Source: an uncultured Bdellovibrionales bacterium (lineage in GTDB: Bacteria > Bdellovibrionota > Bdellovibrionia > Bdellovibrionales > Bdellovibrionaceae). Taken from it: 42,835 nucleotides of DNA. A model generated the notes under the pieces. The model worked only from the letters and a program-made list of their open reading frames with translations. It did not search any database and had not been told where the DNA came from. The DNA is taken from contig CAIYID010000082.1 of NCBI GenBank assembly GCA_903926205.1, forward strand, positions 1-42,835, given 5' to 3'. Positions 2,941 to 23,044 of the stretch are shown here, piece by piece (the stretch's first letter is position 1; each line of letters begins with the position of its first letter). The translations under genes were made by a program, and so were the position numbers.

Positions 2941-3560
2941 CTTATCCTCGAAACGCGCTGGCTAGCAGACAATGGTAGCAATGATATTGGCTCTGATGAT
3001 GCTGATCCCCGGTATTGTCATTAAGTTGCGAATCGGCCTATACTGTTTCTTATTTTTTTCGAAAAGCTCCTTAACTCGGGACTCATTTTTGTAAAAACTA
3101 TTTTCGTCAGTTTGAATGGCCTCAGCTCTGAAAACCGACTTCAGGCGATTCTTAAACCGAACGATCTCCTCGACAATATCCAAATAGCCGCTGATTGATG
3201 TCTGCAACTCCATCCAATGTGAAGTCTCGTGAAATACCGGCTGCAGATGATTTGTTCTAAGTTCCTGGGCCAAATGAAGGGCATCGCGAAAATCAGTTTT
3301 TGCTCCCTGTTTTTTTGCAATGTAAGTTGGATTGCAAATCAGTAAGTGATCGACCTTGTCCTTCAGCTGCAAATATAACCACTGGGAAATTGTTGATTCT
3401 TCGAATGTCATATGGCGCTCACCGTGAATTTTATTGATCACGTGAACTAGACTTTGTTCCGATGTTTTTACTGTCTCGCGCAAAACGCATTGTCCATTTC
3501 GTCAACAACTGCAAAAGTTGAAGTTGAACTGTGGGCATCGAGTCCAATATAATATTTCAT
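2941..3560 (-). pseudogene. Frameshifted, truncated IS110-family transposase
   Basis: A normal IS110 start lies at ATG 3560: MKYYIGLDAHSSTSTFAVVD, the DEDD RuvC-like first strand with the catalytic Asp. This frame dies about ten codons later, while the next frame continues the family with NGQCVLRETVKTSE, KTDFRDALHLAQELR and the transposase_20 start IPGISIIRANIIATIV. One missing A in the A-run at 3497-3499 (reading GACGAAATGG where GACGAAAATGG restores the frame) explains the break. A TAG at 2962-2964 interrupts the next domain, although PARFEDK still follows in frame, after which similarity stops near 2941. Full-length relatives are about 300-400 residues; about 205 remain, so the element is dead. 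Confidence 0.85.
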
Positions 3561-7889: not shown

Positions 7890-9254
7890 CTAATTCTCTT
7901 TTTCCTTTGAACTCAAAACAGAGTAGAGAATCACAAAAAGTGAACTCAAAGTGCTTAATCCAAAAATAAGCAATAAGATCGCCTGAATCGCAGGAAATGG
8001 CCCGGAGAAAATTGGAAACCGACGTGAAGAGCCCCAAAGTCCTGATCTCATCATCAAACCAGACATGAGCATTAAACCAGTCAAAAAAGAAATTAGCGCA
8101 AATTTAAATATTTTATGACTGTATGGCTGCAAAAAAATTCTCAGGGATAAAAAATGAGCTAAAAAACTCAAGGTGATTCCCCCTAAGAGCAAGGGATGAA
8201 AATGCCCCGTCATGAAAAGCGTTCCTAAAATATTCGATTTAAAAGCGGCATTTCCTGCAATCATAAAACCAGAAAGTCCGCCAACGATGGTAAAACTACA
8301 AAAGCTCAGCAAGCCGACACTGGAGGGGCCTGAGTCAAAATTCTTGAGCAAAGGTTGACCTGTTTTTAGAGAATTTTTTTTCGCCATAAAATATTGAAAG
8401 ATATAAATCAAAGTAAAACCCGTAGTCGAAACTGCGGGAATCCAAATATACTTATCAAACCAAGGACCTATTTTTTGGGATTCGAAAATTTCAGGAAGAA
8501 GATGAACAAAACCTAAAATTACAAAAAGAGCATAGCCACCTGAAAGGAAAATTTTAAGCGACCATAAAAGCTTCGATTTTTGTTTTGCTTTAAAGAAAGA
8601 ACCCCAAATCATCATCAGCGCCAACGTCATTGCTTGCAAAGAAAAATGTCCAAGCGGAAGCCAAAGATGTTGGCTCCACTCACTCAACATCAGACCCCTT
8701 TGTAAAAACGCGTTCGTTCCCGCCGCACAGGCCGCCATGATCCAAGACGCAATCGCAATGAAAACCAAATCCAATTTTTCTTCTTGTGAGGAGATTTTTA
8801 CAAATACCAAACAAGCATGAATTGCAATAAAAGAAAATAAAATTACCTGCCCCAAAGAATTAATAATAAGAAAAAAACTGACCCAAGAAGAGTCCGGAGT
8901 CAAAATAAAGGGAGTCAACTGAATAGCCGGCAACCACAGATAGCCCATCCAAGAGCCGATCTCTCCAAGAAGAAAAAGAAACGTAGCAAGGAGAATGCCG
9001 ATTTTTTGAAATTCACTATACTCAAAAGATTGACGACTTTTTATGAAAAAAAAGTAAGCCATCGCTGACGGCGCCCAAAAAATTAACATCGAAAGAGCGT
9101 GAGCAGAAAGTGTTGAATGATAAAGCAGCAACCAGCTAAGAGATCCCGAAACCCGAATGATCAATGTAATTAAAATGGAAATTATCCCGATTGATAAACC
9201 AAAAAAAGCTGAACCTTTAAGTAGTTTCTCAATTAAAAATTGGTTTTTTTTCAC
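7890..9254 (-). CDS. 12-TM protein resembling heme-copper oxidase subunit I
   Basis: The 454-residue product has about twelve hydrophobic helices and almost no soluble parts. Some helices match the heme-binding spots of subunit I: LSAHALSM (His52, helix 2), LPLGHFSLQA (His203, helix 6) and MTGHFHPLLLGG (His351 and His353, helix 10, the HxH that carries heme ligands in oxidases and NO reductases). The paired His of helix 7 that binds copper B in active oxidases is not seen, so an oxygen- or NO-reducing centre is doubtful. The start is a GTG one base after the stop of the upstream prepilin gene, so the two are probably translationally coupled. No subunit II or cytochrome c gene lies nearby. The oxidase resemblance is my reading of motifs; a plain unknown membrane protein remains possible. 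Confidence 0.6.
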   Translation of the reverse strand: MKKNQFLIEKLLKGSAFFGLSIGIISILITLIIRVSGSLSWLLLYHSTLSAHALSMLIFWAPSAMAYFFFIKSRQSFEYSEFQKIGILLATFLFLLGEIGSWMGYLWLPAIQLTPFILTPDSSWVSFFLIINSLGQVILFSFIAIHACLVFVKISSQEEKLDLVFIAIASWIMAACAAGTNAFLQRGLMLSEWSQHLWLPLGHFSLQAMTLALMMIWGSFFKAKQKSKLLWSLKIFLSGGYALFVILGFVHLLPEIFESQKIGPWFDKYIWIPAVSTTGFTLIYIFQYFMAKKNSLKTGQPLLKNFDSGPSSVGLLSFCSFTIVGGLSGFMIAGNAAFKSNILGTLFMTGHFHPLLLGGITLSFLAHFLSLRIFLQPYSHKIFKFALISFLTGLMLMSGLMMRSGLWGSSRRFPIFSGPFPAIQAILLLIFGLSTLSSLFVILYSVLSSKEKEN

Positions 9255-9255
9255 A

Positions 9256-9768
9256 TCAAACTCCGGGACCGATAATCATAGTCTCATTGTACAAGGGACG
9301 AAGCCCATCGATTTCAAGGGAAATAATCTCGAAAACTTCCACCAAATAGGAAACTCCTACTTTTCCATCTGTCCTTGAGCTGGGAGTGATATGCACTTCA
9401 ATTGTCGAATTCGGCCCACAAAGACTTGGTCCGCTCGAACCATAAGCAGGCCCCAAAATAATTCCATCAACAAAAACATTCGTTGCAGAATTTTTTATCA
9501 TGGTTGGAGTTCCATTTTTAGCATAGCAAGCTAAATAATTAGTCCCACTATCTGATAAATTTGGCAAACCATTGACAGGAGAATATATTCGTGAAGACAG
9601 CTCTGTCATTACGACTCTGACTGACATCGCTTTCAAATTAGCGGTTGTCTGTTTCTGATAATGGGTCATCAAAACCATGACAGCGGAAACGCCGATGGCT
9701 AAAATAGCAAAAGAAATAAGTGTCTCAATTAAGGTAAAACCTTTTTGAGAAAAATTAATTTTATTCAT
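9256..9768 (-). CDS. Prepilin-like protein (PilV/GspI type)
   Basis: The 170-residue product has a canonical type III prepilin signal: a short basic leader, then KG|FTLIETLISFAILAIGVSAVMVL, where prepilin peptidase would cut after Gly10 and methylate Phe, with Glu at +5. The rest is a small globular domain with two Cys pairs candidates (ACYAKNG, SLCGPN). The size and the 'GFTLIE' plus 'AILAIGVSA' pattern fit minor pilins of the PilV / GspI group. The gene overlaps its upstream neighbour by 4 bases and abuts the downstream 12-TM gene, so it is the fourth gene of the operon. It would assemble into a type IV pilus or a type II secretion pseudopilus in the inner membrane and periplasm. Confidence 0.85.
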   Translation of the reverse strand: MNKINFSQKGFTLIETLISFAILAIGVSAVMVLMTHYQKQTTANLKAMSVRVVMTELSSRIYSPVNGLPNLSDSGTNYLACYAKNGTPTMIKNSATNVFVDGIILGPAYGSSGPSLCGPNSTIEVHITPSSRTDGKVGVSYLVEVFEIISLEIDGLRPLYNETMIIGPGV

Positions 9769-11297
9769 AGAGAATCTCTCACAGTAAAGCTCATGTCTTT
9801 ATACCAGCCAGGGGTATATAATTTCGAAAGATCCGGGGATTGAATTGCTGGTTTCCAACACTGATTTGTTACTATTCCGCCTGTCGGTCCCGTGGCGGTA
9901 CAGGTTTCAAAATATTGTTCTAAAGAAGAAGGCGCGAACTCTGTTGGTACAGAATTGCCGAACGGAGAAAAAAAGTTATGCGCTACCGTTGACTTTAGAG
10001 TTAAGAAATTACCGGCTAGATTTTGCACACTAACACTTGTCGGGAGGACCGCCGTCGCTGGTGTCGTAACAAAATCAAAAGGATTCAATATATAAAGAGT
10101 TCCGCCACCTGAAACCGTTAAATGTGTTACATTGATGTGACCATAAATGGCGGCTTCGACCCCAAGAGCCAATGTTACATTTAAAGCGTCAGCAATTATC
10201 AATCCACAAAAAATTGATGAATTTGAAAAATTCAAAGAAACGCTCTTACCTTTTTGAAGCAAAATCATATTATTAATGCTTCCCTGCGCCGCCGGAGAAT
10301 TTGCACAGGTCTGATTGAGCTTTGTAAGAACAACTCCATCTGGAAAATTTGTAATTCCAGCCCGTGTCGCATCAGCGAGTTCAAAACCAGGCCCATTCGC
10401 AGCTCCAACGACACTGCTGGGCAAGGGAAATCCACCGACGCTATTATAAACCCAAAAATAGTCCATAGGTTGAGTCCAACCTGTTCCACTATCGAATGGT
10501 AAGCCACTAATTCCATTAAAGGCACTTTGTTGAATACCTCCATAAAAATGACTCAAAAGACTGTTCACACTAAAATATTGTCCAGAGCCCACTGAGGGAC
10601 CTGTTGTGAATAATGTATCTTGAAAAAAAATATTTGGCACAGTTGTCGAAAATAAAGAAGGACTGGTAAACGTTTGCATATCAAGAGGGCTGTTTCCATT
10701 CGAAACTAAAGTTTTACCTGAAATTATTAAAGTAGATTTTGGATCAACTGTAATAACATTGCCAGTGCTCCTAAAAATAGCTGCAAAATTTATGGAGGAC
10801 GCTAGGTTGATCGACAACTGACGGTTCACTTGACCGGTGAGAGGAGGAAAGGTATCAGTCGAATATTGAATTTGAATTTCGACCATAGTGCTAGAAATAC
10901 TTGCATCATCGGCTCGTGCTACGCGGCTCACCGTTAAGTTAAAAGCTCTATATAGCGCAGCTTCACTTGAATCTAAAAAACAAGGAACGAGAGCCTGAGG
11001 AGTTGAAAAGGAAATAGGATTACCAACGGCTTGGCTGGCGTCTTTAAGCACACTAAAATTGCCACAAGAGTCATCGTTCGTAATAATTAGCTCACGAATG
11101 TGAGCTAATATTTTTTCCGTATGTTTATGAGCCTGCTGCTTGAGTGAGACCATCTTTAAAGTTTGACGACTGTTCGTCACATAGCCCGAGATTCCCAGTG
11201 CGGCTAGCAACAAGCAAATAACTAAAGGCACCACGACTAAGAGGCTTCCCCGTTCATCCGAGGTAATAAATATTTTCTTTACCATTCGATCAATCAA
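9765..11297 (-). CDS. PilX-like large pilus-assembly protein
   Basis: The N-terminus (SDERGSLLVVVPLVICLLLA then ALGISGYVTNSRQTLKM) follows the PilX N-terminal pattern of minor pilins, 'RG..L..' before a hydrophobic helix, but without the Glu of classical pilins. At 510 residues it is more than twice the usual PilX length; residues about 150-510 are a beta-rich extracytoplasmic region of unknown fold. The start is a TTG overlapping the upstream stop (TTGA), four bases after AGAGGA; a nearby ATG at 11285 is an alternative. Tight overlaps on both sides place it in the pilin operon. It probably sits at the tip or priming complex of the fibre, as minor pilins do, and the large domain could be the adhesive or secreted-cargo part; that last point is inference. 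Confidence 0.65.
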   Translation of the reverse strand: MIDRMVKKIFITSDERGSLLVVVPLVICLLLAALGISGYVTNSRQTLKMVSLKQQAHKHTEKILAHIRELIITNDDSCGNFSVLKDASQAVGNPISFSTPQALVPCFLDSSEAALYRAFNLTVSRVARADDASISSTMVEIQIQYSTDTFPPLTGQVNRQLSINLASSINFAAIFRSTGNVITVDPKSTLIISGKTLVSNGNSPLDMQTFTSPSLFSTTVPNIFFQDTLFTTGPSVGSGQYFSVNSLLSHFYGGIQQSAFNGISGLPFDSGTGWTQPMDYFWVYNSVGGFPLPSSVVGAANGPGFELADATRAGITNFPDGVVLTKLNQTCANSPAAQGSINNMILLQKGKSVSLNFSNSSIFCGLIIADALNVTLALGVEAAIYGHINVTHLTVSGGGTLYILNPFDFVTTPATAVLPTSVSVQNLAGNFLTLKSTVAHNFFSPFGNSVPTEFAPSSLEQYFETCTATGPTGGIVTNQCWKPAIQSPDLSKLYTPGWYKDMSFTVRDSL

Positions 11298-12862
11298 TTA
11301 ATCCTCTTAAATGAATCCCATTCTGGTTTGAGACTACAATAGCCCGGACCCGTCGAGCATCCATAATCCCTCACATGAAATTCAAAATAAATTCCCTTTG
11401 GAAAAGTTAGCACAGACGAGGCTGACGTGGGAGTAGAAATAGTCATTGGATCTCCCGCTGCCATAAAAATAGCGTTCTGATCATCATAATATTTTGCTGA
11501 AATGGAAATATAATTCCCTTCAGGCAAAGCCATCGCTCCCTTACTTCCTGCCACAGAATAAGTCACAACACCGTTAGAAGCACTACTTGAAAAAGAAAAT
11601 GGCATGCTCGCAATCACAGTCTCTAGGTAAGGACGCCCACCAGGTAACGTTCGAACAACCGGAAAGCAACGCGCCTTATTTTTAGTCAAGTCCTTTGCTT
11701 TAATTCCTTCTTGAACGATGGAGATCACCCCAAGCTCTGCAACAGGAGTTTCTAATAAGCTTTTCAAAGATTTAAATTGAGAAAAATCAACCGCGGGTTC
11801 ATCATCCTTGGCCGTTCCACCGTTGAAAGCCGAGACGTTATTAACAAAGGCCATAGAATTAATATTCTGACATTCTAAAGACAGTGGAACCGATTCCCAC
11901 CAGTATTGAGTGGCGCCCGTGGCTTGTCTGTCCTTACAGGTTTGAACCAACTTATTTAGTTTTGGGATCACATCCTTTACGATTTTTCGATATTTTCCCA
12001 TCGACAAAATCTCATTTACATCAAGGGTTGGATAAACCAATGCATCCAAAGCAGAAAGGGCATCACTCCAATCACCAGCAGGAGTATTTCCAGAGGAAAA
12101 AGCGACGTTCAATGAAAACGCACCTGAATTGAAAGTAAAACTTGCATCGATGGCTTTCTTCAGTTTTATTAATCCGCTCAAATTATCACTCACATCTGTT
12201 GCGGCTTGATTGTTATAATAATCAATCAAAGATTGAGCGATGCTAGCTCCCGTAGGACTTTGACTAATTCCAGGTCCAGCGCCTGAAGTGTCTTGATAGC
12301 TATTGCACAACATCGTCGCGACATACACAGAATAAGTTTGAGTTTGCGGTGTCACTACAAACTGATTTAAAAGTGAACTCAGTTCCTGCTTTAACAAGAC
12401 CGCGGCAGCAACATCTTTGCTGGGGTCCGGAGGTGCGTTGGCGGGGGTGAGCTTCGTCAATAAGCCGCCCTCAATTGGAAGATCTCCGTAGCCGATCGCA
12501 AACCAGTTACTAGGATCGGGGACACTGTTGGGGTCTGTAGATGCAGGAGTTCCCTTTAGCACCCAATATCCCATCACCAGCTTTTCGTTTGTCAGACCGT
12601 GGGCATTGGCTTCATTTGGATGAGCAGAGTAGTAGTTGGTAACGTCTCCATCGCCACAGTACCTGGTCGAACCAAATGAAATATCACCAGGCCTTGGATA
12701 TACAATTTGAGATTTTACCGTCGAGACTGAAGTGATCGGTAAATTGAATTTCATTGTGCCCTCAAAAGATTTGAACGGCGGTCGAACTGGTACGGGAGGT
12801 GTTTCAGCATAGCCATTAAAATTCACTAATAGGAAAATGAAAACACTCATGTAGTACTTCAT
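11294..12862 (-). CDS. Exported protein of the pilin operon, unknown
   Basis: The 522-residue product has a signal peptide (MKYYMSVFIFLLVNFNGYA) followed by a Pro-rich start of the mature chain (PPVPVRPP). The rest is a mix of helical and beta segments with several Cys pairs (for example near the C-terminus, YGCSTGPGYCSLKPEW). No family is recognised. It overlaps the upstream prepilin gene by ATGA and the downstream PilX-like gene by 4 bases, so the three proteins are probably made in fixed ratio and work together, as PilY1-like proteins do with minor pilins. It does not, however, show PilY1's beta-propeller or calcium-loop motifs that I could recognise. Confidence 0.65.
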   Translation of the reverse strand: MKYYMSVFIFLLVNFNGYAETPPVPVRPPFKSFEGTMKFNLPITSVSTVKSQIVYPRPGDISFGSTRYCGDGDVTNYYSAHPNEANAHGLTNEKLVMGYWVLKGTPASTDPNSVPDPSNWFAIGYGDLPIEGGLLTKLTPANAPPDPSKDVAAAVLLKQELSSLLNQFVVTPQTQTYSVYVATMLCNSYQDTSGAGPGISQSPTGASIAQSLIDYYNNQAATDVSDNLSGLIKLKKAIDASFTFNSGAFSLNVAFSSGNTPAGDWSDALSALDALVYPTLDVNEILSMGKYRKIVKDVIPKLNKLVQTCKDRQATGATQYWWESVPLSLECQNINSMAFVNNVSAFNGGTAKDDEPAVDFSQFKSLKSLLETPVAELGVISIVQEGIKAKDLTKNKARCFPVVRTLPGGRPYLETVIASMPFSFSSSASNGVVTYSVAGSKGAMALPEGNYISISAKYYDDQNAIFMAAGDPMTISTPTSASSVLTFPKGIYFEFHVRDYGCSTGPGYCSLKPEWDSFKRIN

Positions 12863-14151
12863 TCGGCCTCCCCGTAAACGGTAAATTTTAAAACTTTAGT
12901 TCCAATTTTTCTTGAAAACAAAATACTCCCCTTCAATGAGGAAATTTCGGTAATATCGACAGGCGATGTCTTGCCGGAAAAATCTCGGCGAATAAATGTA
13001 AAATTTCCCGGTTTCTTAGAGAGAACTTTTAACAAGTAAACCGAAAATCTCACGGGCAAAATAAAAAGATCATGCGGTGACATCGCATTTGAATCATAAA
13101 AATGTGACCATTTTTGAATAGTCACCGGAGCCGAAAGATCTGCAGAATTAAATGAATTTGTTGCGAACAAATTTTGTTGATGTGTTGGGAACAGATAAGT
13201 CCAAGCACCACTCGTTCCATTAATCAACGGACCATAATTAGCTAGTTGTGGGCTGAAAGCGGTGAATTGACTACTCGTAATTTCATTCAGTTTGACTAAT
13301 ACGTGCTGGGCTGTGATCGCATTATTTGGATATTGAGCCTGGCAGGCACTAAGATTTGCCGCACAAGAAGTGGCTTCAGAGAGCCACATCACTATGAATT
13401 GCTGCGGAACATAGGGATTATAAACGACCACTGGTGAACCTAAAATCTGATCTAAGTTGTTCTGACTCCCACTCCCTTTCTCGAGAGTTGTCAAAATATA
13501 AGAACCTGATGCCGCCGTACTGCTCGCGGTAGTCGAAATAAAGCGAAATGCCACCGAAGAATTTGAACGAGAAAGAACTGGAAATTCGACACTCTTTTCA
13601 TCTACCAATGGCCAAGTGACCGACACCTGATTAGCAAGCTTAGAAAGACTCCCAGGAATAGGCTTATTGATAAAGTACCGCGCATCAAAGTTAGCGCCTG
13701 GAGCGATTGAATTGCCCAAACTACTAATGTAAGAAGCATCTACATCACCAAAAAACTCCATATTGGTAGGAAGACCTCCTCCAGTGAACGGCGAAAGCTC
13801 ACCTGAAAGACCATCAATTGTTTGTAAACAAGGTGTGTTCTTGCCAGAACAAGCCGTTGGAACCGGCAGATGCAAAAAAATTGTTCCTAAATCGGCGGTC
13901 TCAGAAACATTGACGAATCGTGCGCCAAAAGAAGCCAAATTCGATTGTTCGATATAGGATTGAAGATTTGCTTTATCCTTAAAGAAATTGGAAGCATATT
14001 GTCCCACCAAGACAGAAACAATCGCAAAAATACCTACGGCGACAATCAATTCAACAAGTGAAAAGCCAACATCGCCCAAATTTTTTATTTTTTTGGGAAA
14101 TCCATTTTTTGGAGAAATAGTTTCCGCAAAAATAATACTTCCCTTTGACAA
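12859..14151 (-). CDS. Prepilin-like protein (PilW/GspJ type), first gene of the operon
   Basis: The 430-residue product carries a type III prepilin signal: basic leader (KKIKNLGDVG) then FSLVELIVAVGIFAIVSVLVGQYAS, cut after Gly29, Glu at +5. The start is a TTG after a run of G (GGGGGGG); the leader of about 29 residues is longer than usual. A PilW/GspJ-like minor pilin is the best fit from its place next to PilX- and PilV-like genes and from its long globular part. It heads an operon of five genes read on the minus strand to 7890. The upstream 290 bases carry the end of the previous transcription unit, so the promoter should lie close to 14152-14280. Confidence 0.75.
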   Translation of the reverse strand: MSKGSIIFAETISPKNGFPKKIKNLGDVGFSLVELIVAVGIFAIVSVLVGQYASNFFKDKANLQSYIEQSNLASFGARFVNVSETADLGTIFLHLPVPTACSGKNTPCLQTIDGLSGELSPFTGGGLPTNMEFFGDVDASYISSLGNSIAPGANFDARYFINKPIPGSLSKLANQVSVTWPLVDEKSVEFPVLSRSNSSVAFRFISTTASSTAASGSYILTTLEKGSGSQNNLDQILGSPVVVYNPYVPQQFIVMWLSEATSCAANLSACQAQYPNNAITAQHVLVKLNEITSSQFTAFSPQLANYGPLINGTSGAWTYLFPTHQQNLFATNSFNSADLSAPVTIQKWSHFYDSNAMSPHDLFILPVRFSVYLLKVLSKKPGNFTFIRRDFSGKTSPVDITEISSLKGSILFSRKIGTKVLKFTVYGEAE

Positions 14152-19251: not shown

Positions 19252-21183
19252 CTAACGAACATCTCCGCAACTTTTGAGATACATGATCAATTTAGAAAGA
19301 GACGCTTCAGCTAAGCCAACACAACTATCCGCGCCACCATAAAATACAAGCACACGTCCTTTCCAAAAGCCCATTCCACACGGAAATACGACGTTACGAA
19401 CCTGACCATATTTTTCATAACTTTCTTCGGGTTCGAGAAGTGGATCCAAAGAGCGACCAAGAATTTTTGACGGATCTTGAAGATCAAGCAACAATGCCCC
19501 CAATCGATAATTACGGTCCTGAAGACCCACTCCATGATAAAAGAGCAACCAACCGTCTTCGGTTTTTAATGGTGGCATATTTGCTCCGATTTTAATTCCT
19601 TCCCAACTGCCTTTCCGAGGGGAAATAATAAACTGAGACTCTAGCCATTTTGTCTGTCCATCAAAATCGAGTTCATTGCGAAAATCAAAAACGATGTCTG
19701 GCTCAATTCTGTGGATGGTAACAAATTTTCCTTTAATTTTTTCAGGAAAAAAACAAGCATCCTTGTTTGCATCCCCAGGAGCTGAAATCAAAATTGCTTT
19801 CACCCAGGACTTCCAATTTTTTTCACGAAAGTCATTGAGTAAAATGGAAGTGAGTGCGACTCGCGGAGGGCTATCTCCTCGATAAGCCGTGTAAAGCATA
19901 TACACTCTGTCACCAATCAGCGTAAGCCTTGGGTCCTCACAACCAGAGTTACCATTTGGAAAGGCCTTTTCTTCAAAAGTCTCTTTCGGAGAATAAATGG
20001 GTTCTGGCTCACGATTGAGTAATTTCAAAGTCTCCGCCGAAAAGGTGGCAAGCCCCATAAATGAAGTGCCGGCATTATCTTGGGCCCGATACACAACATG
20101 AAGCTGATCATCATCTTGAAGTACCGCCGGATTATACACCCCAAGGCGTTCCCAGGAATGATCCCAACGTGGAGTCAAAACAGGGTTAGAATAAGATCTA
20201 TGAAAAATCGGAAAACTGACAACCTCTGGAACAAGATTTTTTATCAAGGAAGGTAGGTGACAAGTTGCTACGGCGCAAACGGTGTCGGCTCCGCCATAGT
20301 AAACGCGAAGTTCCTCTCCCACAATTGTTGCTCCCGACGGAAAGACAATATTTGGAACCGTGCCGTGAATCTCATAACTTTTTTCAGGTACAAGTAGAGG
20401 CTCACGACTGCGAGCTAATATTTTTCTTGGGTCATCACCATCAAGTAAAGCCGCTTCAATTCCAAAAATAGTTCCCGAATGTCCATAGTTTTGAATTCGA
20501 CAATAAATAAGAAGCCAACCTTCTTTTACTTTCAAAGGTGGCGCTCCGACTTCCACTTGATCTGTGTTAACTCTTCGCAAACGAAGGGCATGAGTTGAAA
20601 GTTCCTGGTACCAATTTTGCCAAAACTCTCTGGACCATAAGTCCTCCAGCCGATCAAGCATCGCAATACCCATAGTGGCGGGTGGCAGATCTGTGTTGGC
20701 ACTTAAAATAACCGCATACTTTCCATTAATTTTTTCAGGAAATAGCGCCATTGCCTTTGCATTGAAAGGTGTCACTAAATGTCGTTCCGGTTTGCTTTCC
20801 AAATCATCAAAAATTGCTAGACCCACGCGAATATGATCTGGAACAAAAGGATAGGCTCCGATCGCGGTATAAAATAAATAAGTTTTTCCTTCGAGAAAAG
20901 TCGCTCGCGGATCTTCACAGCCGAAACGATCCCAAGGCAGTTCTGGCCGAATCAAAAGCCCTTTTTTTTCAAAGCTCAACCCGTCTGTTGAAACAGCCTG
21001 TCCTACCGAGGACATCCGTAAGTCCTTACCCTCCAAACGTCGATGATCTGAGATCGCGCGGTAGAATAGGTAATCTTTATTATTGAGTCGAAGTGCACTG
21101 CCATTAAATGCAGCAAAGCTCTCCCACTCTTGTTCGCTATTGGGTGATAGAATCGGATTTGATTTGCATCTTGTGAGTAGCAT
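19252..21183 (-). CDS. Tandem GH130-family glycoside phosphorylase/hydrolase-like protein
   Basis: The product (about 643 residues from ATG 21183) has two five-bladed-propeller GH130 domains in a row. The first shows FNGSALRLNNKDYLFYRA and GCEDPRATF (89-96), the second VYNPAVLQDDDQLHVVYRAQ and GCEDPRLT; the Asp of EDPR is the general acid of GH130. The second half also has HRIEPDI and GWLLFYHGVG followed by FYGGADSCVGLA, the usual family end. GH130 enzymes act on beta-mannosides (mannosyl-glucose or mannooligosaccharide phosphorylases and mannosidases); which one cannot be said. No signal peptide, so cytoplasmic. The gene overlaps the upstream GH130-like gene by 47 bases, which ties their expression. 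Confidence 0.85.
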   Translation of the reverse strand: MLLTRCKSNPILSPNSEQEWESFAAFNGSALRLNNKDYLFYRAISDHRRLEGKDLRMSSVGQAVSTDGLSFEKKGLLIRPELPWDRFGCEDPRATFLEGKTYLFYTAIGAYPFVPDHIRVGLAIFDDLESKPERHLVTPFNAKAMALFPEKINGKYAVILSANTDLPPATMGIAMLDRLEDLWSREFWQNWYQELSTHALRLRRVNTDQVEVGAPPLKVKEGWLLIYCRIQNYGHSGTIFGIEAALLDGDDPRKILARSREPLLVPEKSYEIHGTVPNIVFPSGATIVGEELRVYYGGADTVCAVATCHLPSLIKNLVPEVVSFPIFHRSYSNPVLTPRWDHSWERLGVYNPAVLQDDDQLHVVYRAQDNAGTSFMGLATFSAETLKLLNREPEPIYSPKETFEEKAFPNGNSGCEDPRLTLIGDRVYMLYTAYRGDSPPRVALTSILLNDFREKNWKSWVKAILISAPGDANKDACFFPEKIKGKFVTIHRIEPDIVFDFRNELDFDGQTKWLESQFIISPRKGSWEGIKIGANMPPLKTEDGWLLFYHGVGLQDRNYRLGALLLDLQDPSKILGRSLDPLLEPEESYEKYGQVRNVVFPCGMGFWKGRVLVFYGGADSCVGLAEASLSKLIMYLKSCGDVR

Positions 21184-23044
21184 ATTTTCCAATCTTCAAA
21201 GGAGTCTGTCTTTTAAATTTCAATTCATGATTAGATTTTAAAGCTCGAAGAAATTCGTTAAGATTCCGACTGGCAACACAAACCACACAATCGGCTCCGC
21301 CATAATAAACAAGCAGCTTTTCATTTAAAATCACGGCACCGCAGGGATAAACAATTCCTGGCTTAAAACCACAATTTTCATACCAATCGTTTGGTTCCAA
21401 AATCGGAGTTGAAGAACGATAGAGAACTTTCGTTGGATCTTTAAGATCTAATAACATTGCTCCCATTTTGTAAAAGCAATCGTCTCGATCGTCGACTCCA
21501 TAATAGATAAGTAGCCAACCCTCAGAAGTCTTAAGCGGTGGCGCACCGGCTCCTATTTTTCGACTGTCCCACATGTTTTCGCGAATCGAAATTCGATGTT
21601 TACCCTGAAGCCATCTCGTTCCATCAAAATTCAAATCATCTTCATAATCGATCAGAATATCTGGAAAAACTCGATGCATGATGACGTATTTTCCATTAAT
21701 TTTCTCTGGAAAAATCACGGCACTTTTATCAACAATACCTGGTCGAGAAATTAAAACAGGTCTTTCCCAAAGCCACCGCTTCGCTAAAAAATCTATAAGA
21801 TCAATCGAAGTCAGCGCCACTCGTGGAGGGCTGGCTCCATCAAATGCCACATAGGTCATATAGACTCGTTGATCAATCAAGGTGATTCTTGGATCTTCAC
21901 AACCTGCAATTCCACCACCTGAAACATATTTTTGTTCCACAGCACTAGTGGAATCCTTTTGATAAGATTCAAAAACTTCTTGGGGTAAATATACGGGTTT
22001 TTCTAGTCGCTCATCAATTCGAACACCATCTTCTGTGCTGGCATACCCAATGCTTGAAATCAAATCAGGTCCTTGTGCGCGATAAAGAATATGAATGCGC
22101 CCATCGGCATAGAAGGCCGCTGGATTATAAGTCGCAAAAGACTCCCAGGCAAATTCATTACGGGAAAAGAGGACCGGGTTGAATTTAGATTTTTCAAGTG
22201 AAATTAAATGGTCTTTTGGAAGTTGAACAGGAATTCCCTCAATAGGATACCGAACAAGCATGATACCGAATCTGCTTGTATTCCAAAAACTATAAATTTC
22301 AGAACGAAAAATGGCTGCACCACCAAAGCTCACCTCACCCCATTCTGGATCATCTTCCCAAACGGGCTCAGCAGATCTCCAGGTCACACGAGAAGGATTG
22401 TGAATATCAAGCAGAGCCACATATACGCGCTGTCGTAACTTCTGACTTTCAAAACGGAGAACTCGATAGCAAATTAAAATTCCTTGAGATAATTTCTGTG
22501 CATAATCCACTTCGATTAAATCACCTTTAGCTATATGAGTTGGAATTGAGGAATAAACGTCCAGACTCCAATCAATTGCATTTTTTGAAATCCTGACTTC
22601 TATTGAGGTTCCACCTAGAAACATCACATAATTACCATCCAGCAGATACTCAGGAACAATAACACCGTTAGTAAGAGGGACAGAGAAAGACCTGTCATTA
22701 ATCGCTTTGGGCCGAGTCCATTTTTTTAAATCCTTTGTTAAAGAAATCGCTAAGCCTTTCCCAATAATATTCATGAGCGAAAAATAACCGATGTCTAGGA
22801 GTCCTTGTTGGACATGAGTACAATTTGACAGATGAAACTTAGAGGTACTCAGTTGGAAATCGATGGCATTCTCAGATTCAGCCACATCAATATTTCCACT
22901 CGTTTTAGAAAAAATAAGTTTTAATTTTTCTTTTTCTACGAAAGTTCCTATCACTGTTGGCGCCAAGTCGATAGATTTTAGAACTATCTTACTCGTTATT
23001 TTTTTTCTTGGATTTGATTTTTCGATTGAACTCGGCTGAATCAT
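21137..23044 (-). CDS. GH130-like protein with degenerate first domain
   Basis: The 635-residue product has a full GH130 domain in its second half: SFATYNPAAFYADGRIHILY (302-321), GCEDPRIT (381-388, general-acid Asp384), HRVFPDI, GWLLIYYGVDDRD and VYYGGADCVVCVA. The first 280 residues keep the propeller rhythm (FLGGTSIEVRIS, WGEVSFGGAAIF) but have no EDPR, so this half is probably non-catalytic and may bind substrate or partners. ATG 23044 follows AGGTGAG. It lies 15 bases downstream of the RaiA-like gene and overlaps the next GH130 gene. Two such paralogues side by side suggest a hetero-complex or two steps of one pathway. Confidence 0.8.
   Translation of the reverse strand: MIQPSSIEKSNPRKKITSKIVLKSIDLAPTVIGTFVEKEKLKLIFSKTSGNIDVAESENAIDFQLSTSKFHLSNCTHVQQGLLDIGYFSLMNIIGKGLAISLTKDLKKWTRPKAINDRSFSVPLTNGVIVPEYLLDGNYVMFLGGTSIEVRISKNAIDWSLDVYSSIPTHIAKGDLIEVDYAQKLSQGILICYRVLRFESQKLRQRVYVALLDIHNPSRVTWRSAEPVWEDDPEWGEVSFGGAAIFRSEIYSFWNTSRFGIMLVRYPIEGIPVQLPKDHLISLEKSKFNPVLFSRNEFAWESFATYNPAAFYADGRIHILYRAQGPDLISSIGYASTEDGVRIDERLEKPVYLPQEVFESYQKDSTSAVEQKYVSGGGIAGCEDPRITLIDQRVYMTYVAFDGASPPRVALTSIDLIDFLAKRWLWERPVLISRPGIVDKSAVIFPEKINGKYVIMHRVFPDILIDYEDDLNFDGTRWLQGKHRISIRENMWDSRKIGAGAPPLKTSEGWLLIYYGVDDRDDCFYKMGAMLLDLKDPTKVLYRSSTPILEPNDWYENCGFKPGIVYPCGAVILNEKLLVYYGGADCVVCVASRNLNEFLRALKSNHELKFKRQTPLKIGKYATHKMQIKSDSITQ

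Follow-up and report, generated by a model that had tools for sequence, protein, structure and literature searches.

The tip complexes of type IV pili determine both what these fibers adhere to and whether they are assembled, and a locus in which minor pilin genes run directly into a gene for a polytopic membrane protein raises the question of what such a protein would do for a pilus tip. The locus lies on a contig from an uncultured Bdellovibrionales bacterium (CAIYID010000082.1, positions 1 to 42,835), referred to here as the window, i.e., the whole 42,835-nucleotide stretch of DNA that was analyzed. Reading of the open reading frames and their junctions placed five genes in one tight operon running from 14151 to 7890 on the minus strand, where all operon features given below are located. 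In order, they encode a PilW/GspJ-like prepilin, a Cys-rich protein of 522 aa, a large pilin of 510 aa, a PilV/GspI-like prepilin and a polytopic protein of 454 aa. The pilW/522-aa, 522-aa/large pilin and large pilin/pilV junctions are each overlaps of 4 bp, and a gap of 1 bp separates pilV from the 454-aa gene, which starts with GTG and is served by a Shine-Dalgarno-like GGAG (9261..9264) located within the end of pilV, 6 nt 5' of the start codon. A first-pass annotation had described five minus-strand genes overlapping or abutting by 1-4 bases, which the coordinates and junctions confirmed. Other genera have the same four pilin-type genes, in an unchanged order wherever the locus is complete, which places the operon beyond chance.

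The first and fourth genes encode ordinary minor prepilins. The PilW/GspJ-like protein (430 aa; 12859..14151) carries an unmistakable GFSLVELIV motif with the prepilin site after Gly29 (about 14067); its N_methyl score of 17.3 bits is below the Pfam cut-off of 21.2 bits, and homologues were found at the equivalent operon position in four further loci (L014, L015, L016 and L115). The PilV/GspI-like protein (170 aa; 9256..9768), with its prepilin site after Gly10 (about 9741), matched N_methyl above the same cut-off (33.9 bits, 2e-8) and TIGR02523 PilV at 1e-5, which is under the cut-off of that model. The prepilin N-terminal signal of a type IV minor pilin operon is therefore present in its small subunits, in agreement with the two clear prepilin signals reported at first pass.

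The third gene, which encodes the large pilin (9765..11297), starts with TTG and has an alternative ATG a few codons further downstream. The N-terminus of its product consists of a short basic leader, the residues D-E-R-G-S and a hydrophobic helix lacking Glu5, and relatives with an N-terminus present share the pattern E/N-x-G-S/Q with a hydrophobic residue at position 5. Homologues occur in eight genomes of the phylum. The first-pass annotation had read this as a PilX-like start; a profile search, the test set beforehand for that claim, gave no PilX relationship. No Pfam pilin or PilX match was obtained for the protein or six relatives (0/7), nor did NCBIfam pilin or PilX models match the three large-pilin members scanned, so "PilX-like" is untenable as a family assignment. 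An AlphaFold (AF2) model was generated from a four-sequence alignment and was poor (mean pLDDT 47.8, pTM 0.38), which limits the weight of its structural matches; these were nevertheless coherent. ComZ of Thermus thermophilus (6qvi) ranked first in the PDB by Foldseek (E 0.013) and also by VIA (Z 8.5, 3.8 A over 150 residues), both at this low pLDDT. Residues of about 20-165 of the model resembled pilins and pseudopilins (S. sanguinis PilB, Z 6.2; XcpGHIJK, Z 5.6; EpsI:EpsJ, Z 5.3), and the VIA alignment over residues 167-409 to ComZ and DUF3494-type ice-binding beta-solenoids predicted a beta-solenoid at residues 168-409 (10071..10796; pLDDT 47.8), with FfIBP also high among the matches. The claimed novelty of an "oversized PilX" was not upheld, as the size has precedent and the low-confidence model most resembles ComZ, itself an oversized tip pilin. 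Pilins of the I, J and K types are known to assemble into tip complexes, and read plainly, the model would make the 510-aa protein a tip pilin of the K type that carries a solenoid as its head.

This resemblance invites an explanation in which the operon encodes a DNA-uptake tip resembling ComZ/PilA2 of Thermus, with the membrane protein aiding DNA passage or energizing uptake. The first rank of ComZ in two structural aligners and the adjoining GspI-like pilin, as in ComZ-PilA2, speak for it. However, a common layout taken from a low-confidence model does not establish DNA binding, com genes are absent nearby, and COX1-like proteins, to which the membrane protein belongs (see below), have no known role in DNA transport. 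We therefore consider DNA uptake unlikely as the function of this operon.

The second gene (11294..12862) encodes a secreted, Cys-rich protein with a CGDGDV motif. Its N-terminus is signal-peptide-like by direct reading, in line with the first-pass report of one exported protein. No family in Pfam or NCBIfam and no meaningful PDB chain was matched, and no profile in Pfam or NCBIfam makes this protein a PilY1. Homologues were found in L014-L016, L027 and L115, and five Cys are invariant among four members of the family. J-, K- and I-type pilins encoded together with an exported non-pilin protein could also constitute a pseudopilus set like that of a type II secretion system (T2SS), with the 522-aa protein as its cargo and the membrane gene as a cargo-specific helper, and the carrier genomes do encode multiple PilB/GspE-type ATPases. 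Against this, no gsp genes adjoin the operon, and the 522-aa gene occupies the position that PilY1 has in other minor-pilin operons, i.e., those of type IV pilus tips. In addition, a PilT-family retraction ATPase was detected above the curated cut-off in all eight carrier genomes, which fits a retractable type IV pilus, with PilB/GspE-type ATPases also present. Export of the 522-aa protein by a T2SS-like set is accordingly judged distinctly unlikely. The "specialised fibre or secretion complex" proposed at first pass thus stands in part: a specialized minor-pilin (tip-complex) operon is upheld, which may be part of either a fiber or a secretion system. No other pilus or secretion genes were recognized elsewhere in the window, which also contains an ORF matching an IS110-type transposase N-terminal domain (2962-3483), about 2.3 kb from an FAD-oxidase gene, and two neighboring minus-strand genes (19252-23044) that overlap and belong to the GH130 mannooligosaccharide phosphorylase family.

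The identity of the polytopic protein encoded by the last gene (7890..9254) emerged from its relatives. As a single query, it had no match in Pfam, NCBIfam, 147 relatives or the PDB, and Pfam COX1 was not reached; a two-row profile likewise found no PDB chain. A 444-aa counterpart beside the homologous operon of another genome (G015) gave a full-length Pfam COX1 match (E 3.3e-5) and aligned with the 454-aa protein by BLASTP (1e-6) around MTGHFHP, and a third counterpart (G275) matched Pfam COX1 with an E-value of 1.3e-49. When a COX1 profile was built from genuine oxidases and these two counterparts, leaving the window protein out, the latter scored 34.1 bits (E 2.7e-10), and the best of 300 local block-shuffled versions of it reached 3.5 bits. 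The only non-identical polytopic decoys to outscore it were other COX1 proteins, and the next lower score (14.4 bits) belonged to a cbb3-type oxidase. PDB matches of one profile (A9) were rejected as evidence for the window protein because the G275 sequence dominates that profile, and a match of profile A1 in another genome (G106) was an ordinary oxidase adjoining an SCO1-like gene. By these profile comparisons, the 454-aa protein is a divergent homologue of heme-copper oxidase subunit I (COX1). Both its hydropathy and the alignment to COX1 would accommodate about 12 transmembrane helices, in line with the "oxidase-like membrane protein" and the "12-TM last gene" of the first-pass annotation.

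Alignment with genuine oxidases further indicated which cofactor ligands may have been kept. His52 (9099..9101) aligned with the low-spin heme ligand of helix II, His203 in a GH pair (8646..8648) with the CuB ligand of helix VI, and His351-Phe-His353 (8196..8204) with the HFH heme ligands of helix X. The ligands retained by the 454-aa protein correspond to those that bind the hemes in COX1. In contrast to the well-aligned aa3-, cbb3-, NOR- and other-type oxidases of these genomes, which keep the His-His pair of helix VII, none of the three pilin-linked COX1-like proteins (454-aa, G015 and G275) contains two adjacent His anywhere, which makes a canonical CuB site impossible in the 454-aa protein. 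The set of three CuB His plus heme ligands that defines a catalytic oxidase is therefore incomplete here, with the His of helices II, VI and X kept and the HH gone. An AlphaFold model of this protein from a two-row alignment (pLDDT 43) was useless and set aside. An orphan COX1-like protein of 465 aa (L106:7383-8777, G015:C14; Pfam COX1 1.3e-11), encoded away from pilins and next to a small heat-shock gene, likewise has aligned His in helices VI and X and lacks the helix VII HH in the alignment.

On this evidence, the 454-aa protein is highly unlikely to function as a respiratory oxidase or NO reductase that is located beside pilins incidentally. It is a genuine member of the COX1 superfamily, but besides the missing HH pair its Tyr and Glu motifs are altered, subunit II and III genes are missing at all three COX1-like loci (the window, L014 and the short contig L035), and a separate, genuine oxidase is encoded on another contig of the same genome. 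The 454-aa protein is a tangible example of an oxidase subunit from which the catalytic copper site has been lost.

To place the membrane gene in context, profiles of the large pilin and the 522-aa protein were run over the family, the order, two other classes and finally the phylum (368 genomes). The operon was found in eight genomes: that of the window, G015 (Oligoflexia bacterium BroJett040), G031 (Bdellovibrio sp. qaytius), G042 (a Pseudobdellovibrio MAG), G207, G275, G231 and G359. The four-gene set is also present in G015, G031, G042 and G359, and short contigs carry part of it in G207, G275 and G231; three of the distant copies come from short contigs of MAGs with 3-9% contamination. 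An adjoining polytopic, His-rich protein was encoded at all seven assessable loci, namely a COX1-like protein at three and a member of a second family, termed M335, at four. The COX1-like gene lies downstream on the same strand in the window, directly upstream on the same strand in G015, and convergent at the downstream end of the operon in G275. M335 is downstream in G031 and G042, with an overlap of the order of 30 bp with pilV, downstream, convergent and abutting in G207, and upstream and divergent in G359. Being close relatives, G031 and G042 were treated as a single event. The contig of G231 stops inside pilW, leaving just one flank visible, where a different gene follows pilV. The wider flanks vary, with thrS-infC in G015, a phosphodiesterase gene in G031, SUF genes in G359, and hydrolase and FAD oxidase genes in the window.

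Because orientation and side differ among loci and the 454-aa gene is missing from other members of the family, the membrane gene might be thought to have joined the pilin operon by chance. From about 2.5 partner-family genes per genome of roughly 3000 genes each, however, about 0.002 partner neighbors would be expected per locus, as opposed to one of these two rare families at 7/7 assessable loci, although the choice of families followed the first sightings. Chance joining is thus hardly credible, and the linked membrane partner proposed at first pass withstood the neighborhood survey.

The survey also returned further candidates. A match in G003 (L017) was an ordinary T2SS operon. In genus g80, prepilins of 81-88 aa with a clear GFTLVEMM signal matched pilin profiles in three genomes (L039, L040 and L041); in the two loci that were read (L039 and L040), the prepilin gene sits next to one for a flagellin-like protein. 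The 81-aa matches to the PilX profile in this genus were rejected as small prepilins beside flagellin-like genes. In G015, a gene for a two-domain trypsin-like protease (L014:9805-11502) runs convergently towards the end of the pilin operon, and a trypsin-like gene adjoins a small PilX-profile prepilin in G206 (L114). A scan of viral contigs found no relative.

M335 is a previously unnamed, histidine-rich membrane family, now identified and not in Pfam. It is polytopic, with near-invariant PHF, WHYxKQxxG, FHSLQY and N(I/L)HHxxxDxxxWK motifs in a 21-sequence alignment (A12), and occurs in 18 of 240 genomes of the phylum (L068-L087). It matched no Pfam family and no PDB chain, and homology to the COX1-like set was unsupported (hhalign probability <1%). 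Since the partner belongs to either of two unrelated families, the property they have in common may be something besides heme. M335 was also found apart from pilins, where its neighbors often include exported proteins, lipoproteins of the vWA type or with TSP3 repeats, or a cyclophilin, and these settings outside the operon suggest an accessory role for exported proteins generally. Among the COX1-like proteins, a tree placed those of the window and G015 together (0.84) and that of G275 near aa3-type oxidases (0.65); as branches were very long and some ORFs mis-chosen, independent recruitment of COX1-like partners is a hint only.

Taken together, we lean towards reading the operon as a type IV pilus tip (priming) complex with a dedicated, putatively heme-bearing membrane partner that assists or gates assembly. 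The parts of this reading differ in strength. The membrane protein is very probably a dedicated partner of the tip complex, and it probably holds heme; any one specific role for it, as assembly aid or as gate, is doubtful when taken singly. The COX1-like protein would be a non-respiratory, heme-bearing accessory of the inner membrane that acts on the tip complex ahead of, or in the course of, its insertion into the pilus machinery, working as a folding or assembly factor or as a redox-dependent gate. The unrelated M335 family could substitute for it, and the finished tip complex would cap a pilus that binds DNA, surfaces or perhaps prey. More tentatively, a CuB-stripped oxidase subunit I may have been turned, perhaps repeatedly, into a dedicated pilus-tip membrane factor, for which an unrelated His-rich family substitutes in relatives; we hold this somewhat short of probable, and, if true, it would connect the respiratory membrane to the assembly of pilus tips through a new class of link.

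Both heme-ligand pairs are retained and the catalytic CuB site is lost, a combination that would also suit a redox, O2 or NO sensor, whose heme state controls tip priming so that pilus deployment follows respiration; the unrelated, His-rich M335 might then provide an alternative cofactor. Such a sensor overlaps with the explanation preferred above and differs in making sensing central in place of folding help. The cassette holds neither a signaling domain nor a regulator, and the literature searched contains no example of this kind, leaving the sensor a modest chance.

Overall, the pilin set is a new representative of known kinds and the interest of the locus comes mainly from its membrane partner. 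A fixed association of pilin operons with a CuB-less oxidase subunit or M335 was absent from the open-access papers searched, and the present data suggest a previously undescribed coupling of pilus tips to a redox-type membrane protein. A conserved yet replaceable, oxidase-derived partner suggests that membrane cofactors can help or gate tip assembly. The complete genome of Bdellovibrio sp. qaytius has the M335 version of the operon, which makes the proposal testable.

Several known systems share part of this arrangement. The type IVa pilW-pilX-pilY1-pilV/FimU clusters likewise combine a minor prepilin operon with one secreted non-pilin protein; here, in contrast, the secreted protein is not PilY1 by profile, there is no FimU, and the PilX profile is unmatched. 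The GspI-GspJ-GspK tip trimer of the T2SS also has a small I-, a medium J- and a large, Glu5-less K-type pilin encoded together, but no gsp operon is present here, the genomes bear PilT, and the extra domain is predicted to be beta-rich, whereas the GspK insert is alpha-helical.

A closer parallel for the large pilin is ComZ, described as a GspK-like pilin without Glu5 and with an inserted beta-solenoid whose nearest solenoid is that of FfIBP; it has been placed at the pilus tip and has DNA-binding activity (PMC6561018). ComZ (6qvi, PMC6561018) and the 510-aa protein are both large, Glu5-less pilins with a solenoid insert (here a low-confidence prediction), found beside smaller pseudopilin-like pilins and expected at the tip. 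Sequence similarity between the two is nevertheless undetectable, and neither the secreted CGDGDV protein nor the membrane partner has been described for the ComZ locus.

For the membrane partner itself, COX1 (PF00115) represents the homologous fold family, with the His of helices II, VI and X in common, from which the 454-aa protein differs in lacking both helix VII CuB ligands and subunits II/III and in being linked to pilins. The nearest functional precedent may be TfcP, a non-canonical cytochrome c of Myxococcus xanthus minor-pilin cluster 1 that is translationally coupled to its pilin set and stabilizes PilY1 at low calcium instead of carrying electrons (PMC8833165, PMC13190605). Both loci would encode a repurposed heme protein (the heme being putative here) translationally coupled with minor pilins and unlikely to transfer electrons (PMC8833165). 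TfcP is a soluble, periplasmic c-type cytochrome, as opposed to the polytopic COX1-like and M335 proteins, and the relationship is one of analogy, not homology. Considered side by side, TfcP and the COX1-like partner hint at a recurring use of retired heme proteins in pilus biogenesis.
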